A stretch of DNA of 64,000 bases from Hyphomonas sp. (GTDB taxonomy: Bacteria > Pseudomonadota > Alphaproteobacteria > Caulobacterales > Hyphomonadaceae). The translations under genes and the position numbers were made by a program. Positions 8,855 to 61,653 of this stretch are shown in pieces (position 1 is the first letter of the stretch; the number at the start of each line of letters is the position of its first letter). The notes under the pieces are model-generated. The model was not told the origin of the DNA. It searched no databases and worked only from the letters and a program-made list of their open reading frames with translations. Location of the stretch: the NCBI GenBank assembly GCA_002700305.1, contig PACZ01000011.1:1-64000 (forward strand), written 5' to 3'.

Positions 8855-8929
8855 GCTCCAGCCTCCTTGCTTGGGCTTGGAACATAACGTGAACATTGGT
8901 TTCCGGCAAGCCAAAAGCTTGTGGAATGC

Positions 8930-60845: not shown

Positions 60846-61220
60846 TCAGGCAGCGAGGCCGGTGGCCGCCGGTACTCGCTGCGATTCCTTCGCTTCCGGA
60901 ACCTCGCGCGGATTGAGGCAAACCGGGCTGAAACCCTCCTCGATGTCGGCGACCATGCATTTGCGTTCGCGGGCGTCGAATTCGAGGGCCAGGAACACGG
61001 CCGTCGCGCCGTAGCGTTCCGCCTCCGCCAGGGCCCAGATCGGCTGCAGGTCATGCGGCCGTCCGGTCAGTTCCATCACGCGGATGATGCGCCAGCCGAA
61101 CGAATCGGGGGCTGCGAAGATGACGGCGCCCGGGCTGCGGGCCCATGCGGCGTCTTTTGGAACACGCTGGAAGTCCCATGCCTTGCCAGAGCGTCCCCGA
61201 AAACTGACTGAGATGTTCAT
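60846..61220 (-). CDS. Hypothetical protein, predicted LexA-controlled
   Basis: A 124-residue soluble protein beginning MNISVSFRGRSGKAWDF. A short acidic/hydrophobic alternation (GATAVFLALEFDARERK) suggests a mixed alpha/beta fold. No family recognised. ATG 61220 follows GGAG by seven bases; an ATG two codons earlier and a TTG further up are alternatives. Three GTTC-N7-GTTC sequences just upstream match the alphaproteobacterial LexA box, one overlapping the start region, so it is a candidate SOS-response gene. It converges with the VWA gene, six bases apart. Confidence 0.68.
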   Translation of the reverse strand: MNISVSFRGRSGKAWDFQRVPKDAAWARSPGAVIFAAPDSFGWRIIRVMELTGRPHDLQPIWALAEAERYGATAVFLALEFDARERKCMVADIEEGFSPVCLNPREVPEAKESQRVPAATGLAA

Positions 61221-61271
61221 GTTCATGCTCCGTTCCAATGAGCATGTTCCTATCTTGTTCTCATCTTGTTC
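61221..61271. promoter_or_regulatory. Triple LexA-type box
   Basis: GTTC words at 61221, 61232, 61246, 61257 and 61268 make three GTTC-N7-GTTC direct repeats: 61221-61235, and two overlapping ones, 61246-61260 and 61257-61271. GTTC-N7-GTTC is the established LexA recognition form in Alphaproteobacteria. A -35-like TTGCGA with a spacer of 17 bases to TAGGAA would put the overlapping pair inside the promoter (minus strand), as expected for repression. Confidence 0.72.
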
Positions 61272-61317
61272 GCAAGAAGTTTTTAGTAAACAAAGGGTTA
61301 ACGCCGCGCCTGTGGAA

Positions 61318-61653
61318 TTACTTCACGATGGTGAAGCGCTTGCGGTCGAAAACCCGTAATACCTGCTGCAGGTCCCGCCCCCGGCGCAGAACCTGTCCGG
61401 CCTGTCCGTACACCACATACTGGCCCTGCATATTGGCGAGATGGGGCTGTTTCTCGATCCGCCAGGTCGGATTTTCGGCGTGGCGGCGGAAGATGGCGAA
61501 GATGGCGTGGTCCTTGTGCATGCCGATCGCATAGTCGCGCGCCTCGCCTGCCATGACCAACCGTCCGTAGACGTCGAGAATCGGACGCATCTCGGTTTTG
61601 TGGAAAGCGATTCGCGGCTCGCTCTGGGCCCGGCGGGAAGGAAATTCGCTCAT
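61318..61653 (-). CDS. DUF2794 domain protein
   Basis: A 111-residue protein with the DUF2794 family features: IAFHKTEMRPILDVYGRLVMAGEARDYAIG, then HAIFAIFRRHAENPTWRIEKQP and the ending DLQQVLRVFDRKRF. The family is almost confined to Alphaproteobacteria and has no known function. It is the only gene on this strand before the LexA-box region, and its stop is 97 bases from the next start. Confidence 0.9.
   Translation of the reverse strand: MSEFPSRRAQSEPRIAFHKTEMRPILDVYGRLVMAGEARDYAIGMHKDHAIFAIFRRHAENPTWRIEKQPHLANMQGQYVVYGQAGQVLRRGRDLQQVLRVFDRKRFTIVK

Follow-up and report, generated by a model that had tools for sequence, protein, structure and literature searches.

Three LexA-type boxes precede a conserved Hyphomonas gene for a predicted degenerate relative of small GIY-YIG domain proteins

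The comparisons presented below suggest that a 124-residue protein conserved within the Hyphomonadaceae is, fairly probably in our judgement, a LexA-repressed, damage-induced and non-catalytic effector derived from a GIY-YIG domain, and one that is probably cleared by ClpXP. We identify LexA-type sites upstream of the gene and their conservation among orthologues, trace the homology of the protein to small GIY-YIG domain proteins, and describe the loss of the catalytic residues together with a conserved -AA end; from these we infer LexA binding, induction, proteolysis and a function in binding. Since synthesis would be confined to damage, clearance would probably be fast and the cutting residues are lost, a transient regulator that acts by binding appears to be the simplest reading. 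Counted against it are 13 of 105 family genomes without the gene, the poor spacer of one of the boxes, the lack of a consensus promoter, empty direct family searches, a same-genome paralogue whose matches fall below cut-offs and a second structure model with UvrC missing from the matches listed. If the reading is correct, a conserved multi-box gene is added to the SOS response whose product is a disarmed relative of an excision-repair nuclease with a putative destruction tag; a pseudo-nuclease would thus have been recruited as a damage-response regulator, and its relatives would allow the loss of catalysis to be traced.

The window (the whole 64-kb stretch of Hyphomonas DNA that was analysed) carries the following features.

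60846..61220, minus strand: target gene, 124 aa, predicted to encode a degenerate GIY-YIG-derived domain (about residues 4-100) and a C-terminal tail; from the ORF, its translation, orthologues, homology and the structure model
60849..60914, minus strand: disordered tail (residues 103-124, pLDDT <50) with a Leu-Ala-Ala end; candidate ClpXP degron
61221..61235, minus strand: start-proximal LexA-type box C, GAACGGAGCATGAAC, at -15 to -1; rank 37 of 100 genome sites
61228..61231, minus strand: Shine-Dalgarno-like GGAG within the box C spacer, 7 nt before the ATG
61246..61260, minus strand: LexA-type box B, GAACAAGATAGGAAC, at -40; rank 13 of 100 genome sites
61257..61271, minus strand: LexA-type box A, GAACAAGATGAGAAC, at -51, counted from the start codon; 12th among the 100 genome sites
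61270..61275, minus strand: possible -35 element TTGCGA, overlapping box A, from the sequence

The three GTTC-N7-GTTC direct repeats proposed in the initial annotation were recovered at 61221-61235, 61246-61260 and 61257-61271 by a pattern scan of the window, with half-sites starting at 61221, 61232, 61246, 61257 and 61268. In total the strict pattern occurs five times on the two strands, the two matches beyond the trio lying at 8880 and 24307; shuffled versions of the window (n=100) gave a mean of 1.51 matches, and five were reached in 3 of the 100. Boxes A and B, which have one half-site in common in an 11-bp register, read GAACAAGATGAGAACAAGATAGGAAC along the gene (-51 to -26) and have the LexA-type spacers AAGATGA and AAGATAG. 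Box C has a weak spacer score (23.5% of random spacers equal it) and is nevertheless the best conserved of the three boxes across the family; the Shine-Dalgarno-like word is present in 88 orthologues. A further GTTC at 61215, which had been counted towards the density of the site, does not belong to it: it covers the second codon together with the final part of the start codon, and among 92 orthologues it occurs only in close relatives.

The gene starts with the ATG at 61220-61218 (minus strand) and, as had been claimed, is the sole plausible target of the boxes: the same-strand upstream neighbour, a DUF2794 gene (Pfam E 3.6e-32), stops at 61318, and the downstream neighbour, a VWA-domain gene, is convergent with the target gene. 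Plus-strand ORFs running across the boxes were considered as alternative targets and rejected, being mechanical ORFs that overlap DUF2794 or the target gene. TTGC is found within -70 to -26 in 76 of 91 orthologues, and a spaced -10-like word accompanies it in only 46 of the 91; as a promoter scan of the target region also found no sigma-70 consensus promoter, the placement of the promoter is putative.

We suggest that in the undamaged cell LexA would sit on the tandem half-sites, thereby covering both promoter region and ribosome-binding site and keeping the gene silent, and that DNA damage, through cleavage of LexA, would turn it on. The three half-sites spaced 11 bp apart might accommodate one dimer in either of two registers. 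The product would act by binding and not by cutting, its likeliest role being to modulate, transiently, either repair or a replication/division checkpoint, and the Leu-Ala-Ala tail, resembling the cell's own ssrA tag, would then allow its quick removal by ClpXP.

The description of the protein as belonging to an unknown family held for direct searches, with no match in Pfam (with or without the first Met), NCBIfam or PHROGs, and gives way in profile comparisons, which link it with the small GIY-YIG (UvrC/Cho-type) proteins. Run against 299 genomes sampled across the order, its own family included, a profile built from 46 orthologues found matches in 115; among 385 genomes sampled across the class it matched in four, of which two are Hyphomonas. 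Altogether 20 of the distant matches were read, 11 from another family of the order (here f3) and nine others. In hhalign comparisons the window-family profile matched the f3 relatives at 98.8%, with the whole domain aligned, and GIY-YIG-like relatives, with signatures such as GIYMF...LYVGQT, at 98.7%. One of these GIY-YIG-like relatives matches Pfam GIY-YIG with E 0.0014, below the curated cut-off, and with a profile made from five of them the first five PDB matches are all GIY-YIG chains of UvrC (best E 0.012). PDB searches gave an unconvincing best E of 0.095 with the window-family profile, and no useful match with the f3 profile.

A paralogue in the same genome (C11:178474-178779, L261) has intact GIY-YIG words, lies about 6 kb from recA (C11:171525-172310) and lacks a strict LexA-type box. 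In NCBIfam it matches UvrC (1.1e-5) and Cho (1.8e-5), both below the full-length cut-offs, in Pfam GIY-YIG (0.033), below the curated cut-off, and in the PDB UvrC (0.0038). Compared with a four-member set that includes this paralogue, and that was gathered with the f3 profile and not the window-family profile, the window-family profile reached 94.5% and a score of 48, against at most a score of 18 and 2.0% for column-shuffled controls (n=60) and 0.2% for DUF2794 and a reversed set.

The AlphaFold2 model is confident in its core (block means of 81-92 for residues 1-100), where the predicted order is strand-strand-helix-strand-helix. With Foldseek, this model found the UvrC GIY-YIG domain at probability 0.82, the highest among the matches listed, but with E 0.38; for a second model, built for a relative in a different genus, UvrC was not among the matches listed. 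In a viral fold library no match had an E under 0.001, a phage GIY-YIG protein standing highest (0.41) among the matches listed. Considering that the structure match appears in one of two models, and weakly, the GIY-YIG assignment rests on the profile chain. A phage or defence origin was rejected, the window protein having no match in PHROGs or PADLOC.

On sequence grounds we regard the window protein as a degenerate relative of the small GIY-YIG domain proteins and not as a GIY-YIG nuclease. It is homologous through intermediates to the UvrC N-terminal domain and Cho, with a predicted core that may be similar; in contrast to these, the words GIY and YIG are missing from it, as are the catalytic Arg, His and Glu, and it has a putative degron. 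Nor does it appear to be a member of either family, as it has no NCBIfam match to them and consists of a single 124-aa domain, lacking the additional domains that UvrC has.

For what the product may do there are two rival readings of similar weight, modulation of repair and a role at a checkpoint. We entertain as a tentative possibility that the dead GIY-YIG domain modulates excision repair, competing with or assisting UvrC, or the intact paralogue, at damaged DNA or UvrB; its closest solved relatives, reached via intermediates, are UvrC GIY-YIG domains, the paralogue matches both UvrC and Cho, and LexA-type boxes lie at uvrB and uvrA in the same genome. The link to UvrC is, however, a remote one, and the profile chain speaks of fold ancestry and not of a partner.

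SulA is a small, short-lived division inhibitor of the SOS response under LexA control. Somewhat doubtful, to our mind, is the related suggestion that the window protein is itself an SOS checkpoint protein, stopping division or replication as SulA and SidA do, its GIY-YIG ancestry being irrelevant to its role. Tight multi-box control and a putative degron would suit a protein that has to be removed after repair; in Caulobacter, SidA is described as an SOS-induced division inhibitor (PMC4211646), and ClpXP is reported to remove SocB, a replication inhibitor raised by damage (PMC8973945). By functional analogy the window protein resembles the SulA/SidA-type inhibitors in being small, apparently LexA-controlled and expected to be short-lived (for SidA, PMC4211646). 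Against the suggestion, no sequence similarity to known inhibitors was found in the family libraries (Pfam, NCBIfam and PHROGs), SidA is described as a 29-residue inner-membrane protein, unlike the 124-aa window protein (PMC4211646), and in 17 loci read by mechanical ORFs no partner gene running in the same direction was conspicuous.

The C-terminal tail bears on how long such an effector would persist. An unstructured tail with an Ala-Ala end, as in ssrA-like ClpXP substrates, is present, and the genome's own tmRNA tag, ANDNFAEGELMAA, ends ELMAA. The -AA end is found in 88 of 91 full-length orthologues (L117, cut by a contig end, was omitted from the C-terminus and residue counts), and the other three end Val-Ala. 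It might instead serve as a motif for binding, or simply follow from termini rich in alanine, a view to which we give a low probability: among 157 control ORFs from the neighbouring DNA, each of at least 200 aa, 8 likewise have the AA end, and, besides the three Val-Ala ends, five orthologues end RAA; but that control frequency is about 5%, the stretch from the domain to the C-terminal end varies in length and sequence while the end itself is kept, and the tmRNA tag shares the final MAA. We therefore return to the degron as the preferred reading of the tail; the protein is probably cleared by ClpXP and short-lived, as far as can be predicted from its sequence.

At the catalytic positions the window protein has V33, R47, D57, I61 and V90 in the joint alignment. 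Across the 91 orthologues the GIY tyrosine is replaced by A, V or I in every case, the YIG tyrosine by R or K in 88, the catalytic Arg by D, N or A in all and the catalytic His by a hydrophobic residue in all, so that the catalytic Tyr, Arg and His are kept in none (0/91). The six residues listed for the Glu position account for 89 of 91 orthologues, and the residues listed for the Asn position account for 71 of 91; Glu and Asn, respectively, are not among them. The protein is thus predicted to be probably non-catalytic. That it retains enzyme activity, as a nuclease whose active site has been rearranged, could be argued from the newly invariant residues F7, G9, G12, F17, W26, G31, R44, G53, A67, R69, G71, R86 and G96; in view of the replacements just described, and of how few acidic metal ligands the newly invariant residues offer, we think it improbable.

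All 11 f3 relatives that were read end in AA, have two LexA-type boxes each within 150 nt upstream, and retain the Tyr, Arg, His, Glu and Asn, with F-[LI]-S replacing YIG. They may represent an intermediate stage, one in which LexA-type boxes and the -AA end are in place and the catalytic residues are still present. Of the nine other distant relatives eight are without a box and one (L250) has a box at -108; four relatives from the family f2 (L245-L248) have none. In the tree, the window family forms one group (support 100/100) and f3 another (100/99), and the union of the two is neither supported nor rejected (p-AU 0.444), so that one recruitment to LexA followed by loss of catalysis, and two separate recruitments, both fit. 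It is quite possible, though we put it at somewhat below even, that the Hyphomonadaceae as a whole have SOS-induced, fast-cleared pseudo-nucleases, in which a UvrC/Cho-type domain, recruited to multi-box LexA control and deprived of its active site, has turned into a damage-response switch for excision repair or a checkpoint.

Orthologues were found in 92 of 105 family genomes and in nine of ten genera. Eight of the 13 genomes without the gene belong to one genus, g3 (94-100% complete); the others are one Hyphomonas (94% complete) and four genomes from genera g2, g8 and g10 (73-97%). By protein, the named relatives are mostly Hyphomonas and Henriciella, the nearest being H. jannaschiana VP2 with 99% protein identity.

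Conservation of the boxes before orthologues, which the initial annotation had proposed as a check, was evident on scanning these genomes. Among the 91 orthologues with at least 80 nt upstream, GAAC-N7-GAAC stands at the ribosome-binding site in 90, with the box start required at -22 to -9; the single miss is L136, where the box starts at -9 of the assigned start and overruns it. L137, with 4 nt upstream, was omitted from this count, and the starts of L138 and L139 were shifted upstream by 36 and 12 nt, respectively, to in-frame ATGs. Control windows taken from the same loci (80 nt, both strands, mostly coding DNA) had a box in one of 5433 cases, a comparison in which the orthologues are not independent of one another. 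The 41 Hyphomonas orthologues have three boxes in 23 cases, two in 17 and one in a single case; outside Hyphomonas a single strict box is found in 49 of 50, with a further GAACN7GAA[CT] higher up in 43 of 50. The start-proximal box varies, reading GAACggagcatGAAC at -15 or GAACacaaggaGAAC at -18 to -21. Considering that the half-sites are constant while the spacer and the distance vary, we argue for selection beyond shared ancestry.

In the 3.52-Mb genome (G000) one LexA was found (Pfam LexA_DNA_bind), with the box GAACACATGTAGAAC just upstream of its gene. The strict pattern matches 100 times in this genome, compared with 62 times for a backwards-read control, and is therefore weak evidence by itself. 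Sites also lie before imuA, comM, recN, uvrB, uvrA/ssb, mmcB, dinB and lexA, the SOS gene names having been read from translations in the 20 site regions covered; upstream of recA only GAACAAACATGGTAC is found, which misses the strict pattern. In a spacer matrix built from eight SOS-gene sites and used to rank all 100 genome sites, boxes A and B outrank the lexA box (rank 15). When the training sites were left out in turn, lexA, mmcB and dinB ranked only 27, 24 and 40, so that with three of the eight ranking low the matrix serves as a guide and not as a test. That the boxes are there by chance or for another regulator, as might be thought of a pattern so common that many of its genome matches are due to chance, is extremely improbable, given that the difference between orthologues and control windows speaks against a chance origin, that the spacers resemble those at SOS genes and that the form equals the Caulobacter LexA box (PMC12700426, PMC9578287).

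The candidacy of the gene for the SOS response, raised initially from the boxes alone, thus gains from their conservation before the orthologues, from a lexA gene with a box of its own and from like boxes at SOS-type genes, and it remains a candidacy; membership of the gene in the LexA (SOS) regulon of Hyphomonas is supported at the level of sequence. The box form had been recognized correctly: GTTCN7GTTC is given as the LexA operator in Caulobacter crescentus (PMC12700426, PMC9578287), and the present genome likewise has lexA and boxes of this kind at repair genes. A single box is reported for about 97% of the SOS promoters in Caulobacter (PMC12700426), in contrast to the window gene with its three boxes in two blocks, one over the ribosome-binding site. 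The gene family is not among the genes named for the Caulobacter regulon in the main-text passages of these papers (PMC12700426, PMC9578287); a Caulobacter relative may be under LexA control. Caulobacterales genes named GIY-YIG, with an undefined role, are reported under XRE-type repressors rather than LexA, and are set apart from the present gene by description. Judged by titles and the starts of abstracts, we found no literature on a LexA-controlled GIY-YIG-like protein in the Hyphomonadaceae, nor, judged by title, on the SOS output of Hyphomonas and its kin, which appears to be little studied.

Further LexA-type boxes in this genome lie near other ORFs, any names again being read from translations. 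Strong boxes at G000:C55:3652 (L070) and G000:C17:78725 (L062), which rank 3 and 5 of 100, lie near ORFs whose translations resemble a radical-SAM repair-type protein and a photolyase. The box GAACAATACAAGAAC at G000:C26:581-595 (L065) lies about 180 nt before a likely AAA-ATPase ORF, which is followed by another large ORF, and GAACATAACAAGAAC at G000:C31:30274-30288 (L067) precedes an 84-aa ORF for which Pfam gave no significant match. A second small SOS-type gene, G000:C14:13449-13769 (L268; box region L072), encodes a protein of 107 aa that ends DFAVAA and has no match in Pfam or NCBIfam; upstream lies an inverted pair of LexA-type boxes, GTTCCGTTTTGGTTC and GAACAAAAATGGAAC, at -140 and -120. 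Its orthologues occur in 18 of 105 family genomes, all of the same genus as the window genome; 12 loci were taken from these 18 genomes and 10 retained after a filter, and all 10 keep both boxes and the AA end.
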